Assembly: GCA_964035545.1 (NCBI GenBank)
Contig: OZ037767.1
Location: 18,599,759-18,663,758, forward strand
Direction: 5' to 3'
DNA: 64,000 bases
Origin: Bugula neritina
Taxonomy: Eukaryota > Bryozoa > Gymnolaemata > Cheilostomatida > Bugulidae
In this document: piece by piece, positions 2,375 to 61,607 of the stretch
Position numbering within the stretch: position 1 is the stretch's first letter
How the letters are laid out: every line of letters starts with the position of its first letter
Translations under genes and position numbers: made by a program
Notes under the pieces: model-generated
Databases searched by the model: none
What the model saw: the letters and a program-made list of their open reading frames with translations, nothing else
What the model was told of the DNA's origin: nothing

Positions 2375-5066
2375 CTAAGTTTCTTGTTTCTTGTTCAGAA
2401 AGTTCTGATTTTCTTCGTCTGGCAGCAGCAACTTGTGCTGACTTTGATCAGACGGAAAGACTATGCTGCCACTGAGATCTTTGGAACTGACATCTGACAT
2501 TTCTGTGTAGACATCTGCCAAACAGTCAGTCATCATGTATATGAGTGTCTTATATACATACCCTACAGTCTACATTATTATGGCTACGTGTGTGTCATTT
2601 TGCTTGCTTTCCATAACAATGCCTTTTCCTACTTGCGTACATACGCACTTACAGTCAGTAATTTTAGCTTTAGCTAGTATATATTTATATACCCAGTATG
2701 TTGTTTGGCACCAAAACCAGCTTGCTTATAAAATAATATGTGGAGTTTGAACTTCAACAGTTGGTCTGTTATGTATATTCATGCGTTAGAGGTGGTGACA
2801 GAGTCTAAACCTAGTCAATAGGTCAGGGAGTAAAAGCTATAAGTAAGCTATTAAAATTTCATTATGCAAAATTTCAACTTTATACTTCTGACTAAAAATA
2901 TATTTTAATAATATATTTATATGAACTCCATTTCAGCGAAATGTATAAATAAACAGTATGATTGCATAGGCATTCTAAATGTATAGATCGAGTTTCCATT
3001 TCCTTTACATATATTATTTAACATACTATATCTTATAGTTCAAAGGGACATTTTTCGTAGTTGTATAGTTATGCATTACATTATATAGTCAAGCTTTTGC
3101 TGCATGTCATAATTAAGAATTAATAACTATTTGCAAACGGAAAATCAACTTGAGTAATAAACATGTCAGAAATTTGTCGTTTACTGCCTTAGAAATTTTC
3201 TGATTTAAATTCGTAGCTTAGGCAAGCAACCTTGTTTTATTTCATAAATCAAATTTTGTAATAAAAGATGCCTAACTTTTCTGTAATCATTGAAAAACTT
3301 CATTTCCAATTGTTCTTTTCTATTTTCTTTATTGGCTGCATACTCACCGCAGCCAATTTAGATTTTCATTTTGATTAAATTTTAAAATAAATATGTTTTT
3401 ACTTACGCATTTCTGTAACTGGGTGTGAATATAGCCATTTCTTATCAACATGCAAATCAGGAACTAAAAATTAAAAATATTGATGTTGGTGAGCCACTCT
3501 TCTAGTTTATTGTATTAACTTTTAAATTTTGGTTAACTCTGTACTACAGTTGCTTTAGGTAGTCTCTATCAAATATTATTATATAACATGATTTTAAAAT
3601 AAAGATGAATACAGCAAGACAAGCTTTTATAATTGCATGACATTTTATAGCTTTAGAAGTACTTGATTTGCTTTTAGTGCCAACCTTATACTAATTTTCA
3701 CCACCAATGAACTGAAACTTCATTGATGGGGGTTATAGTTCAATGCTCACCAAAATATGGTAGGTTTCGGTTATTGCTTTTCTCTGAACTAAAATATTTT
3801 TCTTTTTTTCTGTGCACCAAGCAAACAGATATTATAATAATCAATGTCACAGCCATTATTCCTAAAAGAAAACCTATAATCCATAATGGCTGGAAGAGTG
3901 TGAAGGGTTGAACTTCTAGAGTACCATAAGCTAACTCTACTGTTGTATGTCTTCCAATCAGTTGGGCTGTAGCAGTTGTTGTTGGAGTTGCAAACTCACA
4001 ATCTTCCTCGTAGTATTCTGCAAGAGATGTATAATATTTGAGTTAAAGTAAATTTTCAATTGTTTCCATGCAGTTGCTTTGGTGACTTTGTGGACAACTT
4101 TTTGCAACACTCAAATGCATCGTTACAGCCATTATTTTTGTAAACCTTCATTCAGTTAAAAAGCGCCTGGCACATTCATAGATAGTCTATTAAATAGTTC
4201 CCATATATCTTGGCTCTATCAGCTCAAATAGCTTTTAGCGTAGTGTGCCCAAGTATATTGATTTTATAGAGTCCTTTGAAGATGCACCTCTTGAGTTGCT
4301 TCAAAATAATGGTGCACTTGCATGCCATGATGACAGTTTGTTGAGCTGATATTAGTTGTTTCTAACTTTGATTATAGGCCTACTAATATCTATATTTACT
4401 TTATCATAAGATAATAAAATTCTATGAAAACTATACGGCAATGATATAGATATAGGTTGCAAGTTTTCATCACTTTAACTACAAACCTCCTCATAAAGTT
4501 ACACATTTCCCGCTTGTTAGCTTTTCTCAAGAGTTGCATGGTAAACTAACTCACTTTCATTTTGAGAAATAATCGTTTCCCAGATCGTAGCAATTTAAAT
4601 GAAGTGGTTAGAGCATTAGGTAATGGGTTCAAACTTTTGCAGCAGTATTGATGATGCCCCAAAAGCATTCTACTACAATTGCTCACAGTAACTAAGTTAT
4701 AATTTGCTGTTTTAAAACTCTATAGCACCAATATTTCTCGTGGATGCGTCATAGCAGTTGAGATTTAAACTAAAAGAAAGGTTACATGTTAGAAAGATGT
4801 CTATAACCGAAACACCTACCTCTACAGAACTCCTTACACTTAGCCTCTGATCTGGAGCCAGACTTCACAGAGTTGCAGACACTGCTGCAGCTTCTGTATT
4901 GGAGAAAACCCTCTAGAAAGAAACACCCTCTGCTTGAGAAATAAGTCACAGTTTGGCAATCTTCATAGGTGAGAGTAGAAAAATGACCTTTGCACTGTAG
5001 CAGTGTGCTTTCTGAAAAACTTGCTGCATGAAGAATCAGTACAAAAATAAGATATATTAAAGCCAT
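2375..5066 (-). CDS. R1: single-pass TNF-receptor-like protein, 3 exons
   Basis: Rebuilt exons are 4820-5066, 3751-4017 and 2375-2514, all joined in phase 1, giving about 217 aa. Residues 1-18 form a signal peptide. Cysteines 25, 37, 48, 60, 64, 77, 81 and 89 make the same eight-Cys module as in R2-R4. A Thr-rich stalk follows, then a transmembrane helix at about 126-150 (W-I-I-G-F-L-L core) followed by HRKKEK. The last exon gives a 46-aa tail starting DVYTEMSD, with a YxxM motif at 174-177. Exon 2 is 267 nt, exactly the length of the matching R2 exon, which supports the donor chosen (TTTTG/gtgagc). If that donor is not used, the frame stops nine bases downstream (TGA, 3740-3742). Unlike R2-R4, the signal peptide and Cys module share one exon. 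The cysteine spacing is what I see; the receptor role is inferred. The third exon is the least certain part. Confidence 0.7.
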
Positions 5067-5413
5067 GCTGATTATAGACGTAGAACTGCTGCGTAGCTCA
5101 GATTCTCAATAAATGAACTACTATAATATTATTTTACTGATAATGACATGAAGTGAAACTAATGCATTGTGCATGGAAAACCTATGAGTATATTGACGTT
5201 GGCTATCAGCCAAATCAATAGTGTATGGTGTATAGTGTATACATGAACAAACGCACACACCCTAGCGCTCAAGCGCATGTGGGTGTGCTAGACCTTACAC
5301 CGTGACAGCACAAACAAAATGGCACCGCTGTTATGTTTTGTCAACAGGCGTTCACACACTGATGAAAAATACACCACATGACGTTAAGCTGTGACCAATC
5401 ATAATAAGGCTAA

Positions 5414-5691
5414 CCCCCTATTCACACTACCGTAACAGCCATTTTTAATGTGTCCAGACTGAAGTTTTCAAAGTCCGCTATTAGGTACAATCTATGACAC
5501 TTCATTGGACAATTATATCCAATGAATTAAAGCAAAAGTTTTTCTGCCCAATAGGAGTCCGCCGCAACTTATTTGAATCAAGCAGTGCTTGATCCTACCG
5601 TACCGCAACACTGTACAGGAAGCTCAGACATTTGTCAAAATGGCTGATATCTGCTGTTACGGCGTACGATACGGTAAGTGTGAATAGGGGG
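5414..5691. mobile_element. PIF/Harbinger-like MITE with TAA target duplication
   Basis: A 278-bp element with 15-bp perfect terminal inverted repeats starting CCCCCTATTCACACT and direct TAA flanks at 5411-5413 and 5692-5694. A three-base TWA duplication is typical of PIF/Harbinger. The flanks joined without the element (gctgtgaccaatcataa...ttcttgtctg) occur uninterrupted at about 25744-25790, which acts as a related empty site. No ORF. Confidence 0.75.
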
Positions 5692-6270
5692 TAATTCTTG
5701 TCTGCGGTGACTCTATAGCGTTTTGATCATTACTTATTATATTACACATTACCTATTGTCTAAACTTTTGCTCAATCTATTCAAATCATTGCTTGCTGGC
5801 ACAGGACAATTTATCACCATTCACTCATATACTCATTTAGCTACTCACTTAGCCACAGCTTTTTTAAGCCACAGATAGCTTTGTATTCACTATTGCAATT
5901 ACCAATGAACTTTGTGACCACAATATATAGCTGTCAGCTTTTTATAGCTTATAGCCAGAGACCGGAGCTGAGTTGTTTTATGCTTTCATGCCAGTCTGAT
6001 GCTTTTCTCCACTGACTGTGTTATAGCTCTCACTGGTCATTTTTTGTTCTGTGCGTGATACATGTAGATATTTAACCTTTAACTATTACAACCTTATATA
6101 TTTGGTTCTAACTCTCCCCAGGAAGGGTGATAGAGGTATGTTGAACATTGTTATGCAACAATTTTGTAATGTTTTATGTTTTTTTTTCTTGTCATCAATG
6201 TCTTTATTATCAAATTGTATTGTAGTTAAATCATAGCGCAATATAATAATAAAAATATCTGTTTTAATTT

Positions 6271-11726
<5,456 letters not shown>

Positions 11727-13803: not shown

Positions 13804-20858
<7,055 letters not shown>

Positions 20859-23145: not shown

Positions 23146-28312
<5,167 letters not shown>

Positions 28313-32218: not shown

Positions 32219-34348
32219 CATGATTGCCACAAAACATGCGGCTTGTTTTGTTAAATTTCCAAGCAGTCAGGATTGACATCATTATAATAAGTACAAGAAG
32301 ACAAGCTGAAACCGCAATTGGCATCATAAAGAGATTCAATTTCTTCTTGTTAAAATTGTCTGTGTGAAGATTTAAATTTTTGCTTTGCATTGAAGCCACA
32401 TGGTCAATGTTGGAGGAGGTGACTGTTGTTCTGGGTAATGAAGATGGGGTGTCCTCCACACCCTCACAATTCAGTTGAACGTATTCTAGTGAGAAACCAA
32501 CGCTAAGAATCCATCACAGTGTTTCACAGCAGTTATAATCAATGCATAGATTTTATTTATAGTTCAGTATTGTAGCAAGTGAATTTTTCTCAGTTAGGCA
32601 CTATGTATATGATAATTAACGAGGCAGCTATTGAAGTGTGCTGTTGTATTACCACGTCTTAGTGGTCTAAATGTCTACACTTTAGCCTCAGCAATCACAC
32701 ATCTTAGCCTCAGCAATCACATCAATTGGTAAAAATATCAATATTTCCGTTTTAGGTCAAAAAATAATTACTGCATCACTTTGCACTTTTTGAAAAGACT
32801 TTTATGTGTAGCATGTGTAGTAGTTCTATGTGAAAGCAAAGAGACATAACTCCTAGAATAATGTGTAGGACTTACCAGGGCAGTATGCATAGCATTTCCA
32901 GTAACTTGTAGAGTTAATCAACACGTCATTACATATTTTTGCACAGGATTTATACAACAGAAAGTGGGGGACATGGAAGCACCCTACCTCTATTGGATTA
33001 GCATCACAGTCTTTGTTGGAAAGAATAGATAATTCCCCAATGCATTTTAAAGTTATTGCCCTAAAGCATAAATAACATGTGAACATTATATTATGTATAA
33101 TTATAATATAATGTATTATTATATAATACATAATTAAATAAAGTATAATTATATAATATAAAATTACATAATGTATAATTATATAATGTATGTATAATGT
33201 ATTATAATATCATGTATAATCATATAATACATAATTATATAAAATATAATTGTATAATACATAATTATATAGTATATAATTATATAATACATAATTATAT
33301 AAAGTTTAATTATATAATATAAAATTACATAATGTATAATTATATAATGTATGTATAATGTATTATAATATCATGTATAATCATATAATACATAATTATA
33401 TAATTTATAATTCTATAATACATAATTATATAAAGTATAAGTATATAATATAAAATTACATAATGTATAATTAAATAATGTATAATTAAATAATGTATAA
33501 TTATATAATGTATAATTATATAATGTATAATTATATAATGTATAATTATATAACATAGAGAGCAGCTGTGGTCTAGGGGTTAAAGCATTTGCCTAGTAAA
33601 CACGAAGTCATGGGTTGAGGTGACACAGGCCACTGGTGATGTTAAAAAGAGCATTCAGTCAGAATTGCTCCTGTGCCCCATACATGAATAAGTCCTTAGC
33701 TCTATTTAACAAAAGCCTCTTTCATCTAGACTCTAGATTTTCCTCACAGAGATGGTGACTATAAACTTTTGTGAGTGAGTGAGTTATAATTATATAACAT
33801 GTGAATATTATATAATGCATAATTAGCATGTGAATACTTTGTAATGTACAATCATGTAACATGTGAATATTTTATAATGTATACTCATATAACATGTGAA
33901 TAATATTATGTAATTATTGAATTGAGTCTTTTAATAAAAAACACAAAAGGTGTTTCAATATTTAAATTATAAGTAGCTGTTGATAAAATTGCAGTAGAAA
34001 GGTCAGTTTTGTAATAAAACAATCACACTATGTATATAATTATTTAATTTGACACTATATATAATACAAATGTAGATTTTCAGAGATTTTGTAACCATGT
34101 GATGCATGAATACAGAAAGACTTTATACAAGTTTGCAGTGAACTATTTCAATTTTGGTTGGTGGCTAACTTCCCTAAAACAAGAGTTGACCAACTCTGGT
34201 AATACAAGAACCTTGTTATTTCAACCAAGCAAATGCTTTTATTATAGTTAAATAATAACCAATTGAACTGAGACATATAGAGTTCTGTCACCCACCTAGC
34301 AGAAAGATGTGAGACTGCCAGAACCAGAATCAATTGGAAAATAGTCAT
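32219..34348 (-). CDS. R2: single-pass TNF-receptor-like protein, 3' end not found
   Basis: Exons seen: 34296-34348 (signal peptide, MTIFQLILVLAVSHLSAR), 32876-33060 (185 nt, Cys module) and 32219-32485 (267 nt, stalk and transmembrane helix). Module cysteines fall at 24, 36, 45, 57, 61, 74, 78 and 86, spaced as in R1; NST at 67-69 is an N-glycosylation sequon. The helix (about MMPIAVSACLLVLIIMMSIL) is followed by WKFNKTSRMFCGNHG, then a phase-1 donor (G/gtaagt). Retaining that intron stops after two codons (Gly-Lys), giving a receptor of about 170 aa with a roughly 17-aa tail. A further tail exon probably exists in another part of the intergenic region, or the gene is a short-tailed, decoy-like form. 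Exon lengths equal to R1, R3 and R4 make the assignment firm up to the helix. Confidence 0.7.
33090..33555. repeat. AT-rich tandem repeat (ataattatataatgta-type)
   Basis: Lies in R2 intron 1. Short units around tataattatataatgta form a higher-order repeat of about 160 bp (33140-33243 resembles 33300-33403). Confidence 0.85.
33561..33785 (+). mobile_element. tRNA-Thr(AGU)-derived SINE
   Basis: The head (gtggtctaggggttaaagca ... gcctagtaaacacgaa) follows tRNA-Thr(AGT): A box, then an anticodon arm around TAGTAA and a decayed B box. The body continues tgatgttaaaaagagc to actataaact and ends (gtga)n. Flanks both contain ttataattatataacat, possibly a target duplication, although the local AT repeat makes this unsure. 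It lies in R2 intron 1. Confidence 0.8.
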
Positions 34349-36271: not shown

Positions 36272-39200
36272 CTACGGAAACTTTTCACTGTCACTTCTCT
36301 GACTGTCAACAGGCGAAGACGGAGTTACTGGATCAAATGTTGGTGTTTGAGGAGGCAAAGGAGGTCCAGGGTCTTGCCCGGAGAATTCCCCTGTACACAT
36401 GACTGAAGCATTTACTCTGGAATTTCCATTACCGTCAGTCTGAGAAGAGCTGGCAAAAGCAAGCGGTGTGCTGGTCAGACTTCTGTCTCTCCTATCATGA
36501 CAGCTTCCAGCAGGTGGACATTGTGAAGCAGAAGTTGAAGCATATGGGTGACTGGTGACACTTTTGTTGGGTGATATGTCAACTGTCAGTTTGGTGACAG
36601 CTGTCAGCTTGGTGTCAGCTGTCGGACTCTGTGACAGCGGAGATTCAGATTCTGGGAAAGAAAAGCAGGACTCCTGGGTTGGAGTGACTGGACGCGGGTT
36701 TGGCAGGTACTGGTTTGAATCTAAGTTCGAGTTTGTGCCGGTACAGAGTTTTGGGTAGGGAGGAATTAGCTGAGTCTCTGAAATTGACAAAAGAAGCTAA
36801 GTTCAACAATAACTAAGGCTACACTTTAGCCTTTTCGAACTGATAGACAATTTTTAAACTGCATTCTTGCGATGAGGTAATGTTGACCAAGCATTGTACC
36901 AATGAGGTTACAACTGCGCAATCATCAAAGTTCACACTATACAAGTGTAATAGTATAAAGCACTACTAGTATATCACCTGCGAACTGCAAAATACATTAA
37001 GTAAATCTTTTATTTTGCTCACATTATTTTTATAGGCAATGCTACCACAATGCCCGCAGTAAAGTTGTCTGTTACCTGCGTTAGCATTTTCCAAATTCTC
37101 TGCGACTTCTGGATTCAAATTACGCAACTCTATACCCCTTTCCAGACCTTCAGAATTTGGTGGTAAATCTGAAATAGTTAAACAAACGAATAACCACTGC
37201 ATTGCTCTCTAACGAACATGTGCTCTCACACATACTAGACTATGCAGAAACCCGCAGTATTCACACAGAGATGCATATGTTGGGCTGTCATAGATAGGAA
37301 AGTACGGGGAATGAAGAAATCTCACAATTCTGTCAAAATGCACAAAACATCATCACTAGTTGGTAGCTGAAGCTCTTTGTACCAAAAGTTTCATTTAATC
37401 ACTGTTCATTCAAGGACACTATTGGTGTTAGGTTATGATCTGCTTTTGTATAACGGTCTTACTTCTCTTTCTGTGACGACGGAGCAGGTAAATGGCAATG
37501 ACTACTACAAGGGTTAGTGCGAAACCTCCAACCACAGTACCAGCCACAGTAGCAGTTGCTAAAATATAGCAAAGTTGAGATATTCTTTAGCAAGCAACAA
37601 AATCACAGCACAAATACCAATTTTTTTTTCACGCAAGTTTATAGTCATTATCCCTGTGAGAAACCCCTGATAGAAAGGGTTTTTGTTAAAGCAGGCTAAG
37701 GACTTATTTAAATGAGGCACAGGAGCAATGACTGGACGCTCTTCCTAACATCACCAATGGCCTTTGTCTGGGCTCGAACCCATGACCTTCGTGTTTACTA
37801 GGCAAACGCTCTAACCCCTAGACCACCGCTGCTCCCAAATACCAACATTATAATGTATATAAAATAGAAAGCAATGCAATATGGCACAAAACATAACAAG
37901 TCTGTGAAATAAAGACAATTGTGCAGCAATGTAATACAGTATACAATGTACTAAAATACAATACAGCAATGCAGAGCACTAACTTACGCAGCAATGCACA
38001 ATACAATGCATGCAGTACAATACAATGCAGTAAAATGCAGAGCAATGTGAAGCAACATAGTAAATTGTAGTGCAATGTCCCTATAGATCCAAAATTATAT
38101 GCTATTTATTCTTCTCCCAACTGATTCCGATTCAAAACAAACTTCAGGTAACTTAAAGGTGGCACAAGTTTCAGCGAGTCAGAAGACAAAACACAACTCC
38201 AAACAACATTTAATTTAGTTGTTATCTTCCACTCACAATTGGGGGTTTTCTTGGTATTATCTCTACTTTCTCCTACTCTGGGTTTTGAAAAAACAGAGTC
38301 AGTTGTAACTGTTGTTTTAGCTGCTACCGGAAGAGAGGTTACGGCATCAGTAGTCAACTCCCCTGGCAGCACTTTATCACAGGTATTCTTCGGACTGGAG
38401 AAATATCCTGAATGAATGCAATATATCACCTTCTATATATTACCTAATACACTGCTCAAAGCCTTGATTCTGTAAAACTATGCAACTAATACCAATCTAT
38501 GAAGAAAATTGGCACAAAAGTTCACAGCTTCATCAAAACAAAATACAATCACACTTACAGAACACCTACAGATACACAGAGCTTTCCATGACTTTGTATT
38601 ATGCAAATGGATGCTCATATGGATAAATTTGTGGTTGTGGTTTGCATTACCTAATGGTTGTGGTTTCATTCAATGCAAATGTTTCCAAACATTGAATGAA
38701 AAATCTATTCGAATAATGCACAGCTTGGAAATTTAGAGTATGAGTAAATCACACACATGAGTTTCAGTGAACAATTCTTAACTGGAATAGCGGATATTAA
38801 GTTTTAAACTGTTAAACCAAAATGGAAAAACGTTTATCCCCTTAATTTAAATATCAACATTCCAAACAATCTATGATACAGCTCTACTATTCATGTAGCC
38901 AATGAACAGTGGAGTCTACAGTGTGCAATGAAAGTAGGTCAAACGTATGACATAATGACAATGCAATGGCAGATAAGTGGGACAAAAATATATCAGTAAA
39001 CTAAATGTTGAGCAACTGGTAGTAAGCCCATGGGGCATAGAAGATATCTCAATTATTTTGAGCACAGAGAAAAATTGTTTTCCAGCACTGGTTTCTTGTG
39101 TTAAACAAAAATAATAATTACATTAAATGTAGTTATGATCAACTTATCAACTTATTTGTAAAGTTACTGCACACATAAAATTTATAAGTTGCTGTGAATG

Positions 39201-39900
39201 TTACTGTTACTATGGCAACGCCTACCAGGGCAAGATGATAAACATTGACTCTCCTTTATAGAGCCAAATACCACACCATTGCACAACCCACTGCAGCTTC
39301 TAAACTGAGAGAAGTGCTCAATATAGTAACAGGCATCGACGTCTTCGTGACCGTGAGTTTGGCAGTAAGCGTTGTCTAGTTTACTAAGTGGTCCTGTGCA
39401 CTTCCACACCCTACAATCACAGCTGTGCCGTTAAACTTAGTCCCAGATACCAAGTAATCACAGTATTACATATCTACACACTGTGAATTGAGAATATAAC
39501 TCTGCTTTATTTTCTTGCAAGTAGATAGCACTGAAAGCAAAACTGGTATCTTTACAGCCACAACCAAACTTTATAAATATAGAAGCTTAATTGTGTCACT
39601 AATAATGACAATTGAACTTTTTCAACACTTTGCAGTGATTTGACTTTGTTTTCAGATTTTTAGTTTAGAAATTTACATTATAGTTATATGTGTAGTGTTG
39701 AGAGTAGTCAGTAGCCTATGTGGTGTAATAGTTAGCACACCTGCTTGCAAGTCTGAAATCTCGGGTTCGAATCCTAGTGTGGGCAATTATTTTACAATAT
39801 GATTACTTACTCTTTACTACTGGCTTCTGTGACATCAAGAAAAATAAGTAGCAAACAGGATAAAGCCGGCAGTTGTGACAAACCTTTCTGGATTCTCATT
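36272..39900 (-). CDS. R3: TNF-receptor-like protein with TRAF-motif tail, 6 exons, possible 1-nt frameshift
   Basis: Exons: 39811-39900, 39226-39410, 38237-38407, 37463-37558, 37076-37168, 36272-36777; about 379 aa if exon 1 is read without one extra T. Exon 1 is a signal peptide (MRIQKGLSQLPALSC...), but a run of six T puts TGA in frame; five T would give phase 2, matching R4 and exon 2. The Cys module shows C-x11-C-x10-C-x10-C-x3-C-x12-C-x3-C plus an eighth Cys in exon 3. The stalk is Thr/Val-rich. The helix (about VAGTVVGGFALTLVVVIAIY) is followed by LLRRHRKR. The 170-residue tail is Ser/Pro/Thr-rich with PTQES near 244-248, a P-x-Q-E TRAF-type motif, and a block TSTPLAFASS to MCTGEFS conserved with R4. 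Family and tail motif are good; whether the T is real or a base-calling error is unknown. Confidence 0.78.
37621..37835 (-). mobile_element. tRNA-Thr-derived SINE with 10-bp target duplication
   Basis: On the minus strand: gcggtggtctaggggttaga (A box region), a TAGTAAACACGAAGG anticodon arm, GGTTCGAGCCC B box, and a body shared with the 33561 and 60839 copies, ending in a short T-rich junction. caaataccaa repeats at 37611-37620 and 37836-37845. Inserted in R3 intron 3. Confidence 0.88.
39717..39797 (+). repeat. tRNA-like SINE (family 2)
   Basis: tggtgtaatagttagcac (A box) and ggttcgaatcc (B box) are correctly spaced, but T-arm and anticodon-arm pairing is poor, so a pseudo-tRNA or SINE is more likely than a working tRNA gene. 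It ends gggcaattattttaca, as does the 12110 copy. It is only about 13 bp from the R3 exon-1 donor. Confidence 0.6.
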
Positions 39901-43387: not shown

Positions 43388-43406
43388 ATACTGTTTCCAT
43401 TGTCAT
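43251..43406 (-). CDS. short LINE ORF1-like frame overlapping ORF2
   Basis: A 51-codon ATG frame (MTMETVFDTG start, RMEC end) overlaps the first 45 codons of ORF2 in another frame. C. elegans RTE-1 is reported to have a similarly short overlapping ORF1. Coding status here is inferred. Confidence 0.4.
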   Translation of the reverse strand: MTMETVFDTGTNVARVNKVSRWSALAPAASEKSARTQWKVQKSSETSRMEC

Positions 43407-48372: not shown

Positions 48373-51300
48373 CTACCACTGCTTTGCTCGCAGTATTTCG
48401 TGTGCGGCCCTCAGGTCCTCTATCAATTTACTGGCATACTCGTGGATAGTATAGTCTTGCTCCGGGATGTGGTATGTGAGGTGGTCAGGCACTCGCGTCT
48501 CTCGACCAAGCATCAGGAGGTTAGGGGTTTCCCTCGTACTGGTGTGTGGTGTACTACGGTAGGCCCGCATGACTTGCGGTAGTACCGTATCCCATTCCTC
48601 CTGACCCCGGCCGAGGAGCAGACTGCGCAGTGCATCGCCCAACATGCGGTTGTTGCGTTCCACCACCCCGTTGCCCTGAGGATGGTATGGGGTGGTCCTG
48701 CTTTGGTTTACTCCCCAGAGGCGGCAGAGGTCGCTCAACAGTTGAGACTGGAATTGAGCCCCCTGGTCCGAATGTATCTGCTCGGGTAGTCCGAGGTAGC
48801 AGAATACATTTTGGTCTAGCACCCTGGCCACCGTGGGGGCGGACGCATCTGGAATAGCCAGGGCGTCCGCCCACCGTGTAAAGTGGTCGGTTAATACTAG
48901 TATCCAACTGTTTCCTCTGGGGGTGACGGGCATGGGTCCGACTAGGTCGACAGCTACCACCTGCCATGGCCTCCCAGCATATAGCCTACGCCGTCCCGCT
49001 TCGCCAGGGAGACGGCCATGCTTGCTGGCCTGGCAGATTTCGCATTGTTTGACTCTACGCCGTACCTCACGCTCCATGCCAGGCCAGTACCACCGGAGCT
49101 GTAACTTGGAGAGCACCCTGCTTACCCCGGCGTGGGCCTGTTTGTGGGTGTCCCATACTAACTCCCGGCGTATGGCGGCTGGGCAGATCACCCGCTTTCT
49201 TCCGTACTGGCTGTTGTAGGCGGCCACTGTGATGGTCAGCAGACCATCTGGCCTGATCCGCAGGGAGTCCCAACGTTGGCAGTACGACCGTAACTCGGTG
49301 CATCCTTGCCGCAGCTGTTCTTCACTGGGTCGTCGCCCCTCCTTTTTGGCTCGATATACGTCGGCTACTACTCCGGGGAGGTCCTCCTGGAGTCTTCGTA
49401 GCTCCCTGACGTTATCAGCCAAGACAGGATTGGCACGGAGGCGTTGGATAGCCTCCGGGGGCGTAGTGGCCTTCTGTAGGAGTTGACCCTGGTCCCAGTC
49501 ATACTCCGTTTCAGGGTGGTTCAATGCCCTCAACTCGGATTTTGGGGGACCTCCACCCCTCTTCTCAATGTTGAGGCACTGTTTGCACCCCTCGTCCGGT
49601 CGCCGGCTCAGTCCATCAGCATTGCCGTGTTTCTTACCGGGCCGATGCTCAATCCGGTAAGAGAACTCGGCCAGGACTTCGAGCCATCGGGCGATTTGGC
49701 TGGACGGTTCTGCTCTCTTGCATAACCAAATCAAGGAGGCGTGGTCGGTCCGCAAGCGGAACTTCCTGCTGTATAGATAAGGTCTGAAATGCTTCACCGA
49801 CTTGATTACTGCCAGCAGTTCCTTTCGGGTAGTGCAGTAATTTCGTTCAGTGAGTGAGAGAGACTTACTGTAATAGGCCACGACCACTTCGCGGCCCTCC
49901 TGCACCTGGGACAGCACAGCGCCGACATTTTGGTCATTGGCGTCGGTATCTAGGATGTACTCCAGGGCAGGGTCTGGATAGGCTAAGATAGGGGCCTCTA
50001 GCAGGCGGCCCTTGAGGCAGTCGAACGCTCTCTGTTCGACGGGAGTCCACTGCCAGGTCACCCCCTTTGCGGTGAGCCGGTTTAACGGCTGCGCCACCCT
50101 CGCAAAGTCTGGTATGTATTGCCTGTAATACCCTACCAGCCCCAGGAAGGCCCGTAGTCCGGTCAAATCCTGGGGGTTTGCCCAATCTTCTATAGCTCGT
50201 ACCTTTTCAGGGTCCGTCGCCACACCGTGACGGCCGACGACGTGCCCCAGGTACTTCACCTCTGGCTGCAAGAGAGCGCACTTGGAGGGTTTGAGCTTCA
50301 GATTGACACCTCGGAGTCGATCGAAGACCTCCCGCAGACGGCTGATGTGTGTTTGAAAGTCTGGGGAGATCACGATGACGTCGTCGAGGTATACCAGCAG
50401 TGTCTTCCAGTGGAGTCCACTGAGGACCTGTTCCATGAGCTTCTGGAACGTGGCGGGGGCAGAAGTCAGTCCAAAGGGGAGGACTTTCCACTTCCATAAG
50501 CCGTCCCGCGTGATGAACGCCGCCTTCTCCTGGGCGTCAGGGCTGAGGGGGACCTGCCAATAGCCGCTCAACAAGTCTAGCGTACCGAAGTACTTGCTGC
50601 CGACTAAGGCGTCCAGAGATTCGTCGATCCTGGGTAAGGGGTAGGCGTCCTGTATGGTCACGCTATTGAGCTTGTGATAATCCACACAGGACCGCCAACT
50701 GCCGTCTTTCTTTCGGACCAGTACGACCGGGGAGCTCCACGCACTATGTGCTGGCTCGATGAGGCCGCGGTCCAAAAGATCCCGGACTTGTTGGCTGACC
50801 TCCTTTTCCTTCTCGGGTCCCAGCCTCCTAGTGGGCTGTCGAATAGGGGTAGTCCCCGCAGCTAGCGGTATCTCATGACGGACGGCCGTGGTCAGGCCGA
50901 CGTCATGGTCCCCGCTGCTGAACACGTCGCTATAATCACGTAGCAACTGAGCCATGGCCTGGCGTTCCACATTGCCCGTGCAGCCGTCACACGCTGCCTG
51001 GTATAGCTCTTTGACGTGTGGTGGGACGGTCCCCCGCCTAACTGACGGGCTCTGTTGGGGACCTTCCGTCGCAGCTCCCAGCGACGGCCCTATATCTTCC
51101 TCCTGGATGGAGTGGAAGCGGCCCAGCATGGATCCTGACGGTAATTGTACCGCTTCGGAGAAGGGGTTGACACACTGCACCAAGATCTCTCCTCGGTCAG
51201 TCAGCCGGTTAAGACTGCTGGCGAGTTGGATTCTTGTGTGCGCACCTTCGACAACCCCTAACCCCGAGAGTTGGCTATTGTTCACTCTGCAGTGAACGGT

Positions 51301-52455
51301 AGCCCGGGAGCGGCCGGGTATAGTACAGTTCCGTACTACCTGCACGCCTCCCGCTAGGGGACGACCGAACTTGTCGACACAGGCGAGCTCCCTGCCGCCC
51401 ATTAGCATGGCTGACTTGCTAAAGTCAATATGGCACCCGTGTCTCTTCAAGAACGGCATCCCCAGTGTGGCATCCTCTTCAAGTTGGCTGATGACGAAGG
51501 TTTCCTGGATGGCCTGGTCGCGGACGCGCCCAGTCAGTTCTATGATACCGTAGAAAGGAATCCGTGACCCGTCAGCTAGGGTGCCCGGTTCCCCGGTATA
51601 GGGAGCTAAGGCTCCCCTCTCCCTAGGGGGGAGGGTGTCAAAGACCCGATGGCTGAGGAGATTAGTGGTACACCCGGAGTCTAACAGAAAGGTGACAGCT
51701 TTGCCAGCCACCTTCCCTGGCAAGAAGTAGCTACCTCCGTGAGGTTGTACCCGTACTCCCCCAGCGTGCTCGGTCTGGGCCGAACGGGGCTGTGCCCGTT
51801 TGTTCCGCGGTTTGCGGGGCCGGTGAGAGTTTCCTTGCGGGGGGGTGTTTTGATCCCCCCTGATGCCCTGAGGGGCCTCGCTGGTCAGCTCCATTTCTGG
51901 TAGCGGACCGAAGCGGTTGGTGAGAGGTAGAGAGAAGGGGTCTCGTGGTCGACCCGGTTGGCTGGTTCGGCGGGGTGTTTGCCACTGATGGGGGGCGTGC
52001 CGCTGGGCCCGTACGGGCTCCTGGCGACATCCACCCCGTTTTCCTCTCGGTTTGGGTCCGCGGAGCTCTGGAGGTCTCCGGGGAGGTTGGGGTTTCTGCT
52101 GCCGTTTGAGTCGTGGGCAGCTTGGGCGGCGATGTCCGTTGATGCCGCATTCCCAGCATTGTATAGTGGGTCTGGGGGGTTTTGCTGCTGGTCTCTTATA
52201 CTTCCTGGAGTTGTTGTATGTTATGGTTGCCACCAATTGTCCCAGTTTAGTCATCAAGCGGTCAACCTCCATCTCTATAGGGGGGCTAGTGGTAGCGGCA
52301 GTTGTTCGGACCGGGTGGTCTGGCTCTCTAGAGGTGCGCGGAGTAGTCACCTCCGTCTTGTAGAGCTGCTCGGCCCCAACGTAGGCCTTGTTTTCTTGAA
52401 TTGCGGCCTCGATCGTGGTTACTCCCTTTGCTTGTAACTGGTGGTGGAAGTCCAA
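48373..52455 (-). CDS. pol: gag C-terminus and pol polyprotein (PR-RT-RH-IN)
   Basis: 1360 codons. From the N-terminus: the gag end with a CCHC knuckle (CWECGINGHRRPSC), aspartic protease (FLLDSGCTTNLLS), reverse transcriptase (VDYHKLNSVT, LVYLDDVIVIS with YLDD), RNase H (ILDTDANDQNVGAVL), and integrase with an HHCC zinc site (HKQAHAG ... CEICQ) and D,D,E core (VAVDLVG, HSDQGAQF, QGNGVVERN). The true gag-pol start lies in the frame at 52916. The frames are out of register near 52490, where the downstream frame meets a stop just before its first coding residues. The frame ends at TAG, cutting off the integrase C-terminus. Confidence 0.95.
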   Translation of the reverse strand: MDFHHQLQAKGVTTIEAAIQENKAYVGAEQLYKTEVTTPRTSREPDHPVRTTAATTSPPIEMEVDRLMTKLGQLVATITYNNSRKYKRPAAKPPRPTIQCWECGINGHRRPSCPRLKRQQKPQPPRRPPELRGPKPRGKRGGCRQEPVRAQRHAPHQWQTPRRTSQPGRPRDPFSLPLTNRFGPLPEMELTSEAPQGIRGDQNTPPQGNSHRPRKPRNKRAQPRSAQTEHAGGVRVQPHGGSYFLPGKVAGKAVTFLLDSGCTTNLLSHRVFDTLPPRERGALAPYTGEPGTLADGSRIPFYGIIELTGRVRDQAIQETFVISQLEEDATLGMPFLKRHGCHIDFSKSAMLMGGRELACVDKFGRPLAGGVQVVRNCTIPGRSRATVHCRVNNSQLSGLGVVEGAHTRIQLASSLNRLTDRGEILVQCVNPFSEAVQLPSGSMLGRFHSIQEEDIGPSLGAATEGPQQSPSVRRGTVPPHVKELYQAACDGCTGNVERQAMAQLLRDYSDVFSSGDHDVGLTTAVRHEIPLAAGTTPIRQPTRRLGPEKEKEVSQQVRDLLDRGLIEPAHSAWSSPVVLVRKKDGSWRSCVDYHKLNSVTIQDAYPLPRIDESLDALVGSKYFGTLDLLSGYWQVPLSPDAQEKAAFITRDGLWKWKVLPFGLTSAPATFQKLMEQVLSGLHWKTLLVYLDDVIVISPDFQTHISRLREVFDRLRGVNLKLKPSKCALLQPEVKYLGHVVGRHGVATDPEKVRAIEDWANPQDLTGLRAFLGLVGYYRQYIPDFARVAQPLNRLTAKGVTWQWTPVEQRAFDCLKGRLLEAPILAYPDPALEYILDTDANDQNVGAVLSQVQEGREVVVAYYSKSLSLTERNYCTTRKELLAVIKSVKHFRPYLYSRKFRLRTDHASLIWLCKRAEPSSQIARWLEVLAEFSYRIEHRPGKKHGNADGLSRRPDEGCKQCLNIEKRGGGPPKSELRALNHPETEYDWDQGQLLQKATTPPEAIQRLRANPVLADNVRELRRLQEDLPGVVADVYRAKKEGRRPSEEQLRQGCTELRSYCQRWDSLRIRPDGLLTITVAAYNSQYGRKRVICPAAIRRELVWDTHKQAHAGVSRVLSKLQLRWYWPGMEREVRRRVKQCEICQASKHGRLPGEAGRRRLYAGRPWQVVAVDLVGPMPVTPRGNSWILVLTDHFTRWADALAIPDASAPTVARVLDQNVFCYLGLPEQIHSDQGAQFQSQLLSDLCRLWGVNQSRTTPYHPQGNGVVERNNRMLGDALRSLLLGRGQEEWDTVLPQVMRAYRSTPHTSTRETPNLLMLGRETRVPDHLTYHIPEQDYTIHEYASKLIEDLRAAHEILRAKQW

Positions 52456-52916
52456 AGAGTTGAGGGAGTGTACAAAAGCTTCGAATGTAGGCTATAGCGC
52501 CGTCTGTGTGTTTCTGGCAGATCGCTATACGCGGTCCGTGCCAGTCTCTGCACCAGAGTAGCGTGATCAGGAAGCGGTGTACATGTTTTGCGGAGCATTC
52601 CTTGCAGCCTGGACTTGGCGACGGCAACGGGTATGCCAAAACGGGCCCGTAGCGTAGCAATGATCCCGTCTACGCTAGACCCCCACCCGTACGGCTTGGC
52701 TTCTTCCGTCAGTGCCATTCGTAGTTTCATCAGGGTTACTCTTGGCGGCCATCTTGTAATGGCTGCAACTTCACGGAACTCCTGAATGAACTGTTCAACA
52801 TCTTCAAGGCCCGTGAATACGGGAGCCTCTAATGTATTCCTATACGCCTCCTCTCCGAGAGGGTCTATGATAATGTTTCGCTCACCTTCTTCAGTTGAAG
52901 CTACACTTCCGGCCAT
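52419..52916 (-). CDS. gag: gag N-terminal part, frameshifted
   Basis: ATG at 52916, 42 bp downstream of the primer-binding site. The 165-aa frame holds a Ty3-type capsid core (FTGLEDVEQFIQEFREVAA, then WPP, LMKLRMALTEEAKPY). From about residue 140 it leaves the correct frame, and the gag sequence continues in the frame of the 48373-52455 ORF; a one-base indel near 52490 explains it. Confidence 0.85.
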   Translation of the reverse strand: MAGSVASTEEGERNIIIDPLGEEAYRNTLEAPVFTGLEDVEQFIQEFREVAAITRWPPRVTLMKLRMALTEEAKPYGWGSSVDGIIATLRARFGIPVAVAKSRLQGMLRKTCTPLPDHATLVQRLARTAYSDLPETHRRRYSLHSKLLYTPSTLWTSTTSYKQRE

Positions 52917-52978: not shown

Positions 52979-53242
52979 TGTAGTAATTCGTGCAATTACT
53001 GTGCGTGAGTTCCTAGCTTGTAATTATAGTCTATTTATCCACATCAATAAAGTATTTAAGTAAGATTCAACGAGGTTTATTTACTACTAAGTATATTGAA
53101 AGATACAAAAAGTACACAGATTGAAAACAATACATCTTTACTCATTTAGTACGCTCTCTCTACTACTCTTTACATCGCTGGGGGTTATCACATGACGCAC
53201 TCTTATTGGCTAAGGGGACGCGCGTATTACGTACTCACTACA
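52979..53242 (-). repeat. 5' LTR
   Basis: 264 bp, TG...CA ends, five substitutions from the 45669-45932 LTR. Confidence 0.95.
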
Positions 53243-53276
53243 ATACTTTCGACAAAGTCTCGCTGCTCCAAAAATA

Positions 53277-54046: not shown

Positions 54047-54127
<81 letters not shown>

Positions 54128-54845: not shown

Positions 54846-57800
54846 TCAACTTTCTCCACTGTCAAAAGGTGAGGACGGAGCTACCGGATCAAATGTTGGT
54901 CTTTCAAGAGGCAAACGAGGTCCAGGGTCTTGCTCAGAGAATTCTCCTGTACACATGACTGAAGTGCCGACTCTGGAATTTCCACTACTGTCACTCTGAA
55001 AAGAGCTGGCAAAAGAAAGCGGTGTGCTAGTCAGACTTCTGTCTCTCCTATCATGACAGCTTCCAGCAGGTGGACATTGTGAAGTAGAAGTTGAAGCACA
55101 TGGTTGACTGATAACATTGGTGTTAGGTGTCATGTCAACTGTCAGCCTAGAGTCTGCTGTCAAACTCTGTGAAGCAGCACTTGGATGTAGAGTGCCAGAT
55201 TCCTGAACAGGGGTGGAAGGTCGAGGGTTGTGTTCGTACTGCACGCTGTCAAGGTGTGAGTTAGTATCAGTACAGATTTCACTGTAGGATTCGCTGCCAT
55301 CAATGAATGGAGTGCCTAAAACATGAGAATAATGTGAGATATCAGTCAACCAGCTCTTGCATAGTGGAGACAGGAATCAAATCTAATTTATGTTCCCCAT
55401 GCATTGCTATTCAAATAAGACTAAGGAATTTGTCAACCAACAATTGACAGTTTAATCTTCACTGCGCTTTTATTAATAAAAATCGAGTATAGTATAAAAT
55501 ATAAAAAATACTGACAAAGATTGTAATAAAGTGTCACAAATTCTACTTTATAAACTGTTATAATACATATCACTCTCTTTTGTTATTTAGCTTACACTTA
55601 TAATTATATGGCACACAAGTCTATTGCAACTATCATTATGCAATAATTGTTTACATTCTTAATCGCTCTTTATTGGTTAATGAATAGTGCCTATTTTACA
55701 CGAGTCATGCACAGTGTATGATGTGATAGTATTTTTTAGACTTATTAATTTAGAATCACCGGCTTTCCATGTACCGATCTCAGATCGATCTCAGGCAGAT
55801 CGATCCATGGAAAGACGGCAAAGATCGATCTCAGTCGTTCTGAGCTGGTCGGTCTGTAGAGCTCGAACTCAGATCGATCTCAAGGCAATAAGACCATGGA
55901 AAGACGAAAGATCAATCCGAGAAGTAGAAAAATGACTGCTCGCTAAAATGTTGTCTGCTAATAAAAATGATAACTTATTGTTAATTATTAAGCAAAGTAC
56001 TTAATAATTAAGATAGCCACCTTTTCAAGTGGCAAAACTTTGACTTTCAGTAAAATGATTAGGAAAACTTAATTATGTAAAATTATGGATGGTAGAAGAT
56101 ACAAAAAGTGAGAGTATTTAAATTGAATTTAAATGACTAGTATAACCAGGGATGTAGTGGTACCCATACGGTCCCATACGCCGTATGGCCTAGAAGAAAA
56201 TAGACTGTTCTAGGCCATACGCCCGTATGGGCATAAATATTTTTGAAAGATGATTAGTGCACAGGATAGTTTGGGCATCCTCACTGAGAATATTATCATA
56301 AATTTCGCTCACAATCTAGTTTAAGTTCTTGTTATGTTAATGCTATGTGGGTGGCATGCGTGTTGCCTACTTGTGATTGTTTAGCCTGAGATTACACTAT
56401 GAATAATAAGCAGCTGCCCGAATTAGAGCTATCAACATTCCATCTTCTCATCTCTATGTGTTCACTGAAGCGCGAAGTGCTGTGCATTGGTGATTACTAA
56501 GGAAAAAATCTTTCATTATCAGTGTATAAATCACTAACTTGTAGAAAATCTATGAAGGCTATTGAAAAGATTAAAAAAATTTGCCATGCATAAATTTCTC
56601 AGGTTTCCGACAGTGTTTGTTCTATTCGAATACCATGCTTTCCTGATGAGATATTTGGCAGGAATTGAAAAATAAATTTTTCAGGTAAAATTGGCCAAAA
56701 GTGGGTAGATTTTTGTCTATAACTTTGCAAAAAAAATATTGAAAACTCAAAAAAGCAGGTGCTCTGAGGAACAGAAAGATCTAAAACATGGTTTTTAAAT
56801 TTTAATTCTAGCACAATTAAGTGAGGTTTTATTTGGCTGGACTGAATTCTTATAATATACCAATAATGTGGCCCCAGCAAGGCAGTGACAGCTAGAAGGT
56901 TGCTCTTATCTGTCTTGTGTGGACTTGCATTTTGTCAATAAGCAATAGAATTTGGAAAAAAACCAACATGAAATCCAGAAATAAAATTAAAATGTCTTCA
57001 GGAAACAGTACCAGGTGTGTAGGAGGGGTTAATGAAAATTTATCACCGAGGTCTACAGGTACTATATCCACATTTTGGTCAAAAACCTAGCGTTATTGCA
57101 TGTCAATTATCAATGCAATAAGGTTTTGCAAACTGTACACCACCATAAGTAACCTTCTATGTTTGATTGTACTAACATCAGGCTTTACATTTAATCGTCT
57201 TCTAGGTTAACACATATTAAACTTGTCAAATTTGTTCTTTTGGGGTATATTTCCTTGATGTATCTAGTGGAAGCTCAGGGGTTTTATTTTAAAACCAAGT
57301 TAACATACTTTTCTTGGGTGTGCTTTATTGTGTGTAAGGAGGTGTGGTGGTATCACCTTATGGATTAGACTAGTATACTCTAATAAACTCCAAATAGGTT
57401 TTCAACCAATTTCTGCTTGCCAATGAGTTATCAATTCAAATTGCTCTTTATATGTAACCAACACACATTTTCTGATTAGCAATCTTCCTCTGTTCTGATC
57501 TATTATTCTTTTTCTTTGCACGGCAGTGTATTAGTTATTTAAAGTAATCAGGTTGCATTTGGAGAGCACTTGTTACCTGCCTCTATCCTTCCATCTTTTT
57601 GAGATATTCAGCAATTTTTCTGTACAGGTTGGACTTAGTGTCAGAACAAACCTAACTGCAGTTGAGTAAGACTACATTACATTACATTACAGTCAACAGG
57701 TATGGGACGAGACTGAATATTTATATATATAGTTTGCAGCAATGCCCAGTCGTCATGTAGCTGGTGTGATATGAAAATAATAGCGAGGTGCACATTTCAA

Positions 57801-60800
57801 CACAGATTTTTTCAGAAGAATTATAATTCACAATGGCTTTAGATTGCATAAATTTGCATCAGAAGCGCTCTGAGGGCTTCGGCGGCCGGGGCGCTGCCCC
57901 GGACCCCGCCGGGGGCCTGGGCGGCCCCCTGGACCCCCGGCCTGAGAGTATGGCCTAGAATATTCTTGCCACTACATCCCTGAGTATAACGCACTGTCAT
58001 TAGTTATTTGCTGCGTAATTTTAAGCCTAATAGTCCCGTAAGTTTATGAATAAGCTGCACAACAGCTATTAATTTTATATAAGCTGTCAAGCTAAAATAT
58101 TAAAATTAATTATCTTAAATTGGCCAAATTACTCCATACTAAAAGCTTTACTGCGTAGAGTTTATAGCTGGCGGTAAATTTTAAACTATGAAATTTTTTT
58201 TTTCACCAGCAGTAGCTTTTATCACTCAGGTGGGTAAAAAAATTATGCTATTAAAGTAATCTTTACCTAAGAGGAGGCAACTCCGAAAGATCGATCTGAC
58301 GCTCTCATGGAAAAACGATCGATCTGAGCACATGTCTCAGATCGATCTCAGCGAGATCGATCTGAGATCGATCTGAGATCGATACATGGAAAGCCCGTGT
58401 ATAAAAGCAGATGCTTTACTTGTAAGAGGAGTTCAACAATAAAGTTCATGAACTTTGACCTTGACAAATTACCTTCTGAATCGACTAGAGAATTAGCATT
58501 ACTCCTGCGGTTGTGCATTTCTAAATCATTTCTGCCTTCTCTGGAAGTTGATCTGGATGCTAAAAATAGACTCGATGATGGAAACTTTCGCAAGCGTTAC
58601 AACAAGACACATGATACTAATAAGAGTTCTATGCAAAAAATCAGAGATGAGGCGAAGATGAAATTTTAAAAAGTTTGTTTTTCGAAGTAGAAAAATAGAT
58701 GAAGAAATGAACCCAAAATTCATAAACGAGTATTTTGAAGCAATATATTCCTTTAAGATATTTGCACTCTATCAATATTTTGAGTTGAATTTTTATTGAA
58801 AAAGGAATAATGCAAAATAAAAATCATAATTTTCAAGTTGTAATTTAAATGTTTTAATACACTGCACAGGCAATTTTAAATGGTGAAATTTATGAAGTAT
58901 AAGCACCATAAATGTCATGAAACCCGTATCTTTTGAAATATATGTTTCAACTACTTTTGAACTAAAAAGACAACCTTTATAAAAATGCATCGTTGCCTCA
59001 AGTGCACAGCATCGTTATTTCAATCTTTAAATTTTTTACAGGAACACATTAAATATTGCGAGTTTTTATTAAAAGCAATAATGTAATATTATTTGCTAAG
59101 ATTCATAAGCTTTAAAGTAGTGTCTACTTATATAGTTAGGAAATATAATAAACATTTACGTTTTCTTTTGATCTTTCTGTGCCAGCAGCAAACAAATGTG
59201 ATGGCTGCCAAGACGACGAGTAGAACAAAGGTGCCCACCAGTGCTAGAGTTACTAAAACATCAAAATAAAATTAAACATAAATTTAAAATACACTACAGA
59301 ATGCGTAAAAATACATCACTGAGTTTGTAACAATACACTACTGAGTGTAACAATACTGAGTGAGTAACAATATACTACTGAGTGAGTAACAATACACTAC
59401 TGAGTGAGTAATAATACACTACTGAGTGAGTAACAATACACTACTGAGTGAGTAATAATACACTACTGAGTGAGTAACAATACACTACTGAGTGAGTAAC
59501 AACACACCACTGAGTGAGTAACAATATACTACTGAGTGAGTAACAACACACCACTGAGTGAGTAACAATACACTACTGAGTGAGTAATAATACACTACTG
59601 AGTATGTAACAATATACTACTGAGTGAGTAACAATACACTACTGAGTGAGTAACAATACACTACTGAGTGAGTAACAATACACTACTGAGTGAGTAACAA
59701 TACACTAATGAAGAACAACTTGACTGCTCCAAGAACACTCACAGATTTTAGCAATTGCCTCACCAGCAGTTTTTTGATGAGATACATGTGAAACAGATGC
59801 AGTAGTAGGAGTTAGCTGGGGTATTAGTGTCCTAATTGTCATTGATTTCGTAGTTACCTCCCCTGGTGACATTCTTGTACAGGTATTGCTTGGGTGAGAA
59901 AAGTAATCTACAAAAATGAGTCTCATGAAATGCTAGCCATGCCACTCTGATTGCGTCAAAGCAGCATATAGCTGTTATTATTCCCATGTATTATAAATAT
60001 TGTTATCTATATTATATATGAATAAGCATACCATAAAGAAGAAAATTGAAAAAACATTAATGTGTAAATTGAAAAGTTAGCATTTCTGCAACAATCTGTT
60101 GCGGTTTCTATAAACATCACGACTGACTAAAACCATAAAAAATTAATTGCAACCAAAAATCACTGGTTTAGTACCAAGATGGCAAATTTATTTGATTTTT
60201 ATAGAAAGTAGCTTCGAGACTATTGTATCCCAACCTTGCATAGCTCATGCAGACAAATGCGATTCATGTTTGAAGTATTTGAGTCAACAGAAGTACATTA
60301 TACTTCACATGTGATAACTATTGGGTACTACAGAGTCTTACAGGATAACACTGAGAACTAGTGAGTGCTACAGAGTAACACTGATAGCTAGTGAGTACTA
60401 CAGAGTAACACTGATAGCTAGTGAGTACCACTATGGACTAATGAGTGCTACTGAGCCCTAGTGACAACTACTAAAAGTGCCAAGATTTAGCATACGATAA
60501 CATACCCGAGAAACAAGACAAATGTTGCACCAAAAGCTGAGTCACTAGTCTATAGATTGTGACTGTCAGTCACAATGAATAATCAAAGTTACAAAGTTCA
60601 TTAAGAGTAGCTGACATTTTTCTAAGTGAAAAATGACACTAAGAGTTGAAAAGGCAATATATTTACTACCATTTATAAGTTACCATATTTTATATGGAAA
60701 AGCATGTGTAATTCTAGATAAGAAACACAGCAAAAGAAATTAGGCTCCCTCAAGAATTTTAACCCTCGCCCTAAACCAAAATGTAATAAAACAATTAAAG

Positions 60801-61607
60801 AACTTAGGTTATCCCACTTTTTCCATTACTACTTCCAAATAGTGATGTTAGAAAGAGCATCCAGTCATAATTGCTCCTGTGCCCCATTTGAATAAGTCCT
60901 TAGCCTTATTTAACAAAAACCCTTTCCATCAGGGGTTCTCACAGGGATAATGACTATAAACTTCCATGAGTTTGTATATAATACCACTTACTAGGGCAAT
61001 GTGCCGTGCATCTGCTTTCACTTATTGAGCCAACTTCCACATTCTCACACAAGGTAGCACAACTCCTGAACTGCGAAAAATGTTGCACGTAATAGCAGCC
61101 ATCTCTGTCTGTGTGTCCATTACTTTGACAATAGGTGTCATCCAGTTTACTTAATGGTCCTATACATCTCCATATTCTACAAAACATGCAGGGGCAATTT
61201 TTCTTCTTAGTAGATTTGTTTTTAAGTCAATGTATCCCAATACCCTGAAATCAGTGTGCATAGACAAGTGAAACTGATGGTATGGATTACAGGTATAAAA
61301 TATGATTGCGTGTTTAGGATAATATTGCCTCTCAAAGCAAAAGATTTTTATTGTCATTATTCTTTCTGGAGGTTTAGGTACTGGGGGTAAGCATTTTTAT
61401 GACTAAAGCCACAAAATGTTATACAATGTAGCTCTTAGCTAATACCAAGTAATCCTAGCTTTTATTCCAATTCTATTAAAAAAGACAAACCCCAACTAAA
61501 CAATTGTAATGCTGGAAGTTTCAGTGTACTCACTGTGCAGATGATGTTATGCCAGCAAAACATAATATTGACAAAGATAATTTAGACAATTTTCTCCTTC
61601 CTCTCAT
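54846..61607 (-). CDS. R4: TNF-receptor-like protein with PVQES tail, 6 exons, intact
   Basis: Exons: 61534-61607, 60992-61176, 59743-59907, 59160-59252, 58473-58559, 54846-55315; every junction keeps frame, giving 357 aa. Exon 1 is a signal peptide (MRGRRKLSKLSLSILCFAG). Exon 2 is 185 nt, like R2 and R3, and holds the Cys module (C-x11-C-x10-C-x10-C-x3-C-x12-C-x3-C), including GCYYVQHFSQFRSCATLC. Exon 3 adds the eighth Cys and a Thr-rich stalk. The helix (LTLALVGTFVLLVVLAAITFVCC) precedes WHRKIKRK. The tail is Ser/Pro-rich with PVQES at 237-241; CD40 uses PVQET to bind TRAF2/3. A distal block (SQCPPAGSCHDRRDR, MCTGEFSEQDPGP) is shared with R3. Intron 5 is swollen by nested transposons and intron 3 is almost all minisatellite. 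The receptor call is inferred from architecture, the motif and ligand linkage. Confidence 0.82.
55759..58397. mobile_element. TIR element with agatcgatct-rich ends, host of nested hAT
   Basis: Inverted ends ccggctttccatgtaccgat and (reverse complement) cgggctttccatgtatcgat, followed by repeated agatcgatct. Without the nested 1836-bp insert and its duplication it is about 795 bp. No clear target duplication or transposase. It abuts R4 exon 5, leaving 75 bp. Confidence 0.65.
56147..57982. mobile_element. hAT-like non-autonomous element, 8-bp target duplication
   Basis: 14-bp terminal repeats CAGGGATGTAGTGG, flanked by agtataac at 56139-56146 and 57983-57990. CAGGG ends plus an 8-bp duplication fit hAT. 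The left subterminal region has a hairpin (cgtatggcctagaa / ttctaggccatacg); the right end has a very GC-rich stretch (57880-57950). No intact transposase frame. Inserted in the 55759-58397 element. Confidence 0.85.
59320..59708. repeat. 22-bp minisatellite (actgagtgagtaacaatacact)n
   Basis: About 17 units occupying most of R4 intron 3 (59253-59742), ending about 35 bp from exon 3. Confidence 0.93.
60335..60440. repeat. short tandem repeat (about 30 bp: acagagtaacactgatagctagtgagtact)
   Basis: Three to four imperfect units in R4 intron 2. Confidence 0.7.
60839..60968 (+). mobile_element. 5'-truncated tRNA-Thr-derived SINE
   Basis: Matches the body of the 33561 and 37621 copies from gtgatgttagaaagagc to gactataaactt; the tRNA head is missing. 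It ends about 22 bp from the R4 exon-2 splice donor. Confidence 0.8.

Follow-up and report, generated by a model that had tools for sequence, protein, structure and literature searches.

Are ligand and receptor-like genes that lie side by side partners in signalling, or only neighbours? The question is raised by a 64,000-nucleotide stretch of the genome of the bryozoan Bugula neritina (assembly GCA_964035545.1, 215.8 Mb in 295 contigs; contig OZ037767.1, here contig C3, positions 18599759-18663758), called the window in what follows, which holds two TNF-like genes on the plus strand (T-A and T-B) and four paralogous cysteine-module genes on the minus strand (R1 to R4). A first-pass annotation had described these six genes as TNF-type ligands linked to receptor-like genes, with local duplication on both sides. 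Their presence and linkage were borne out, and the outer limits given for the cluster proved to be true gene ends, namely the stop codon of R1 (2375-2377) and the start codon of R4 (61605-61607). The cluster is real and is bigger than the window, since genome searches follow it to C3:18.827 Mb. It is moderately probable, in our judgement, that the window belongs to a larger cluster, some 223 kb long, where TNF-type ligands and single-module, TRAF-recruiting receptors have each been duplicated locally. Such intermingled genes make ligand-receptor matching directly testable, since a cluster with so small a set of ligands next to one new family of single-module receptors leaves fewer pairs to test, and would be a natural case for the origin of new signalling pairs.

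Linkage of the two gene families

Within 223 kb of contig C3, eight of the 17 module loci found in the genome (R1 to R8, 18.604-18.827 Mb) interleave with four of the 10 ligand loci (18.619, 18.627, 18.725-18.728, and 18.781-18.790 Mb). Both totals are lower bounds. Two stalk matches were left out of the module count. The other module loci lie on contig C3 (three at 25.09-25.11 Mb and one at 31.18 Mb), contig C4 (one), contig C9 (two), and contig C7 (two at 7.09 Mb). The six remaining ligand loci are on contig C7 at 1.847-1.917 Mb, where the locus at 1.910 rests on E values of 0.06 and 0.41 and that at 1.917 on a match with stops plus one clean exon. In a randomization that scattered six clusters of module loci and two of ligand loci, each as a unit, along the genome treated as one line, a ligand and a module cluster overlapped in 0.9% of trials (p about 0.009). 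The order of the 12 genes within the cluster is not unusual (7 runs; probability of as many or more, 0.47). No such linked cluster of TNF ligand and receptor genes was described in the literature searched, including the available parts of PMC7674686 and PMC12843592.

The rarity of such overlap argues against the most probable of the alternatives, that the two families are chance neighbours. The TNF ligands would then use canonical multi-module TNFRs encoded elsewhere, while the module genes, unrelated to them, would encode bryozoan-specific hairpin-module membrane proteins for a different ligand; both families would have expanded in a repeat-rich region. The ligands do have other possible partners, because canonical TNFR_c6 modules exist in the genome at C5:7.334 Mb, where three share a frame, and at C7:1.443 Mb (four matches over the cut-off and one below). 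Moreover, nine of the 17 module loci lie away from ligands, no module locus was found by the genome searches beside the second ligand cluster (C7:1846559-1917424), and the module is unlike TNFR modules by sequence. Against these points stand, besides the overlap statistic, the C2-like cysteine spacing of the module and the TRAF-site-like motif in five tails, both described below, and chance proximity is on balance unlikely, though it carries real weight. A duplicated, TNFR-like receptor family next to what are probably its ligands is the favoured reading.

The TNF-type ligands

The products of T-A and T-B are members of the TNF family. A protein search with T-B (E<=1) gave four matches, an unnamed fragment and three proteins of Watersipora subatra (identities of 37, 35, and 40%, with 76, 76, and 59% of the query covered), and the three TNF-domain exons of T-A, like those of T-B, match Watersipora proteins. 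The gene model of T-B itself scores 17.2 bits (E=0.0053) on the Pfam TNF model, under the cut-off of 23, and the TNF homology domain is recognized through its homologues, since the two Watersipora proteins that were scanned, P0001 (30.2 bits) and P0003 (29.3 bits), both pass. An AlphaFold 2 (AF2) model of P0001, built from three sequences, has a mean predicted local distance difference test score (pLDDT) of 56 and a predicted TM-score (pTM) of 0.43, with higher values over most of the TNF domain. Searched against known structures, this predicted fold points first to Drosophila Eiger (6i50, E=4.5e-9, TM by target 0.72), with 269 chains at E<=0.001 and TNF-family ligands named in the titles of 49 of the 50 matches listed. 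P0001 and P0002 are isoforms of one Watersipora ligand; the stretch in which they differ immediately precedes the TNF domain and looks like a choice between mutually exclusive exons.

The T-B gene runs from a first exon for a cytosolic part, a membrane segment, and a coil, through an exon with the basic site KVKRQ (RFKRE in Watersipora P0001), the GIPYYDIALIRGDP exon, which weakly resembles an exon of P0003, and a stalk exon, to three TNF-domain exons, the junction between stalk and TNF domain being tentative. Its first exon, read by eye, contains a putative type II membrane anchor. T-A as read has no intact anchor, because its first exon is 4 nt shorter, the loss falling inside the membrane segment, where a stop is met (13969-13971). 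The TNF-domain exons of T-A remain open despite the broken first exon, and a pseudogene, an allele, an assembly error, or an alternative first exon are all possible explanations.

The receptor-like genes and their cysteine module

R1 to R4 have in common an eight-cysteine module, a stalk, and a transmembrane segment. For signal peptides and membrane segments the analysis relied on inspection by eye and a hydropathy scan rather than on a dedicated predictor. The modules of R2, R3, and R4 are 39, 38, and 33% identical to that of R1, with seven cysteines invariant in all four, and cysteines C1 to C7 share a single exon, C8 being supplied by the exon that follows. R3 is complete from signal peptide to stop with splice phases that agree by eye, R1 can be read from start to stop, and R4 is likewise read as complete, with one juxtamembrane exon putatively placed by its similarity to Bugula neritina EB796_008502 (P0005). 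R2 as read consists of a module exon and a transmembrane exon; none of 14 candidate stretches for its tail exon was convincing, and a signal-peptide exon was not found, the dedicated R2 search being aimed at the tail. A protein search with the receptor alignment (A2) matched P0005, to which the R4 tail is 78.7% identical, and a metagenome fragment; a wider search, in which candidates were limited by shared words and length, gave one metagenome fragment (P0007) and no Watersipora receptor.

Whether the module is a TNFR module has to be asked of its cysteines, its sequence, and its predicted fold. The spacing C4-x3-C5-x12-C6-x3-C7 is found in 14 of the 17 module loci of the genome, the exceptions being both loci on contig C7 (x16 in place of x12) and the locus at C3:31.18, which is without C5 and C6. 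C8 was seen by eye in all 14 loci that were inspected for it, out of the 17 (R1 to R8, the contig C4 locus, both contig C9 loci, both contig C7 loci, and C3:25.087), in each of which it shortly precedes a Thr/Ser/Pro-rich stalk. The cysteine-rich domain (CRD) of TNFRs has six cysteines in three disulfides (PMC4979521), and the eight-cysteine module is in this respect unlike it. Eight cysteines do not, however, exclude membership of the TNFR superfamily, because the Drosophila receptor Grindelwald also has eight.

The Eiger-Grindelwald pair, as described in PMC8024323, resembles the bryozoan cluster in several ways. The ligand is a TNF jelly-roll, and the receptor has a single eight-cysteine module with a helical half of the form C-x3-C-xn-C-x3-C, was missed by sequence search, and recruits TRAF through its tail, as the R tails may do. 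The C2 module of Grindelwald, a helix-loop-helix, has the spacing C-x3-C-x11-C-x3-C, its linker being one residue shorter than the x12 of the R modules. The cysteines are arranged 4+4 in the fly and 3+4+1 here, three before the C2-like half and one after, so that the N-terminal X2 hairpin of Grindelwald, with two disulfides (PMC8024323), is not matched by the three cysteines found there in the R module. In addition, the fly has one ligand and two receptors, whereas the bryozoan has clustered families.

None of the 17 modules matched a TNFR model in Pfam, TNFR_c6 included (best E of any model 0.011), and sequence searches of the PDB with the module profile and with R3 alone gave no TNFR match. 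The best PDB sequence match of the module was a plant alpha-hairpinin (vicilin N-terminal repeats, E=0.089). Alpha-hairpinins have a similar CxxxC-n-CxxxC helical hairpin but, unlike the R proteins, are not membrane receptors, and the likeness is probably convergent. A Foldseek search with the predicted structure of the R3 module returned 32 rows, none of them significant, from which Grindelwald was absent; a second structure aligner found nothing. On whether the module folds unlike any TNFR module, which would count against the first-pass reading, the signs are mixed: one half of the module has C2-like spacing and four of the 32 rows are TACI or BCMA, but none is significant and plexins take at least six, including the first. 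TACI and BCMA, with BAFF-R the receptors of BAFF and APRIL in vertebrates, resemble the R proteins in having a single small module, and differ from them in cysteine number and order and in lacking sequence similarity. We know of no interleaved gene cluster of this kind in the BAFF/APRIL system. The R modules are candidate members of the TNFR superfamily. If the module does have the TNFR fold, it would be another TNFR type, after Grindelwald, that sequence searches missed, and the numbers of receptors counted in other invertebrates would for that reason be underestimates.

Tails and a possible signalling route

The cytoplasmic tails also bear on a receptor role. The pattern P[VIT][QP]E[ST] was sought in six-frame open reading frames (ORFs) of >=30 residues, about 119,700 residues in all, from the window together with nine fetched loci. 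It was matched five times, and each match lies in a module gene's tail exon and is read in the sense direction (R3 PTQES, R4 PVQES, R5 PVPES, R6 PVPET, and R7 PVPES). The R3/R4 tails and the R5 to R7 tails have no mutual BLAST match at E<=1, yet both classes carry it. Shuffled tails contain the motif with a probability of 0.0005-0.009 each, a figure that is descriptive only because the pattern was picked after the tails were seen. The R1 tail offers a looser match, PDEENQ, and the genome encodes TRAF-type MATH domains (28 exon matches). Unlike the single-module R proteins, CD40 belongs to the canonical TNFRs with several modules. Its TRAF1/2/3/5 site, given in the available part of PMC3408473 as PVQET, resembles PVQES of R4 and PTQES of R3, while the TRAF3 site of BAFF-R, PVPAT in the available part of PMC9616699, resembles PVPES and PVPET of R5 to R7. 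As read from the sequence, the motif lends added support to a receptor role, and the R genes most likely represent a lineage-restricted, single-module TNFR-like family that would signal through TRAFs.

Might the R genes that have no TRAF-like tail be decoys or adhesion proteins instead of signalling receptors? The R2 tail exon was not found, and no occurrence of the motif turned up in the 57 kb retrieved for R8 and for the members on contigs C4, C7, and C9 and at C3:25, stretches which may end before the tails. Since the transmembrane exon of R2 ends with a good splice donor, more R2 exons are likely, and this is the least probable of the alternatives.

On the favoured reading, the ligands are predicted type II membrane proteins, in which a stalk and a basic (furin-like) site lead to a C-terminal jelly-roll that should trimerize. 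The receptors would be type I proteins in which one eight-cysteine module, its second half a C2-like helix-loop-helix, is joined by a stalk to the transmembrane helix and the tail beyond it. The likely mechanism follows Eiger-Grindelwald or BAFF/BAFF-R: a ligand trimer would bring three receptors together, and TRAF adaptors would be recruited by the P-[VT]-[QP]-E-[ST] motif of the tails, starting JNK-type (or NF-kB) signalling. JNK is put first because TNF signalling in the fly runs to JNK and TNF control of NF-kB had not been found in invertebrates, as stated in the available part of PMC7674686.

Family trees and selection

Trees were built from seven of the 10 ligand loci with two Watersipora proteins and from all 17 modules. 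The four ligands of contig C3 stand apart from those of contig C7 and Watersipora (support 99/99), subject to a long-branch warning, and T-C and T-D, the other two ligands of the cluster, form a pair (100/99); the tandem cluster of about six loci on contig C7 is nearer to the Watersipora proteins. The modules show a weak split (78/89) between R1 to R4, with the contig C4 and C7 loci, and R5 to R8, with those on contig C9 and at C3:25 and C3:31. Taken together, the trees give each of two sub-blocks, T-A/T-B with R1 to R4 and T-C/T-D with R5 to R8, its own ligand and receptor types, and off-cluster receptors occur in both groups. An ancestral linked pair of a TNF ligand and a single-module receptor could have been duplicated into these sub-blocks as a supergene with separate cognate specificities, perhaps polymorphic and used between colonies, but we consider this distinctly improbable.

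The first-pass annotation had also raised the possibility of self/non-self recognition, for which the analysis gave no support. A polymorphic allorecognition locus of linked ligand and receptor would suit a colonial host in which both kinds of gene are linked and duplicated and fall into separate sub-blocks. The ratio of nonsynonymous to synonymous substitution (dN/dS) between T-A and T-B, in this one genome, is 0.46 for the first exon and 0.10, 0.15, and 0.07 for the TNF-domain exons, which are thus under purifying selection; this and the off-cluster receptors in both receptor groups make such a locus very improbable. Diversifying selection was not seen in the T-A/T-B and R3/R4 pairs, single pairs having little power. 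Between R3 and R4, dN is 0.29 with saturated dS for the modules, and dN is 0.21 and dS 0.46 for the tails. At the DNA level the tail exons (36302-36606 and 54858-55162) are 87% identical and the module exons (39223-39416 and 60989-61182) 65%, a contrast that may reflect gene conversion of the tails or faster change of the modules.

Features of the window

Table 1. Exons of the ligand and receptor-like genes, in window coordinates.
Feature	Position	Strand	Remark
T-A exon 1: cytosolic part, membrane segment, coil; frame broken in membrane segment	13804..14064	+	comparison with T-B; boundaries by eye
T-A exon with KVKRQ basic site	15438..15516	+	similar to T-B 24112-24190
T-A exon GIPFYDIALIRGDP	15925..15987	+	weakly resembles Watersipora P0003 (E=1.3)
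T-A stalk exon with Cys pair, 3' boundary tentative	18070..18182	+	
T-A TNF-domain exon a	18904..19043	+	
T-A TNF-domain exon b	19934..20089	+	
T-A TNF-domain exon c with stop	20739..20858	+	
T-B exon 1: start, cytosolic part, membrane segment, coil	23146..23410	+	
T-B exon with KVKRQ basic site	24112..24190	+	
T-B exon GIPYYDIALIRGDP	24551..24612	+	weakly resembles Watersipora P0003 (E=0.42)
T-B stalk exon, 3' boundary and junction to next exon tentative	26418..26530	+	
T-B TNF-domain exon a	26797..26924	+	
T-B TNF-domain exon b, Cys pair	27381..27536	+	
T-B TNF-domain exon c with stop	28193..28312	+	
R1 signal peptide and module C1-C7	4820..5066	-	
R1 exon: C8, stalk, transmembrane segment	3751..4017	-	
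R1 tail exon with stop (PDEENQ)	2375..2514	-	splice phase agrees, by eye
R2 module C1-C7	32876..33060	-	
R2 exon: C8, stalk, transmembrane segment; ends in splice donor	32219..32485	-	
R3 signal-peptide exon	39811..39899	-	
R3 module C1-C7	39226..39410	-	structure modelled
R3 exon: C8 and Thr-rich stalk	38237..38407	-	
R3 transmembrane exon	37463..37558	-	
R3 juxtamembrane exon	37076..37168	-	
R3 tail exon with PTQES and stop	36272..36777	-	
R4 signal-peptide exon	61534..61607	-	
R4 module C1-C7	60992..61176	-	
R4 exon: C8 and stalk	59743..59907	-	
R4 transmembrane exon	59160..59252	-	
R4 juxtamembrane exon (putative)	58471..58560	-	located from its resemblance to Bugula P0005
R4 tail exon with PVQES and stop	54846..55315	-	

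Two open retroelement frames lie inside the cluster on the minus strand (40256-43402 and 48373-52491), the first an endonuclease-reverse transcriptase of 1048 aa of the non-long terminal repeat (non-LTR) type and the second a protease-reverse transcriptase-RNase H-integrase of 1372 aa of the LTR type. Elsewhere in the window, TG repeats form a perfect array from 10388 to 11722 (1335 bases, 667.5 units), and there are several 16-base minisatellites (7556-8092, 16070-17443, and 24805-25151). Between R1 and T-A, a minus-strand reading frame (6271-6630) has weak similarity to acetyltransferases (GNAT; E=0.02-0.04, below cut-offs), and the cluster may on this account hold at least one gene of another kind.

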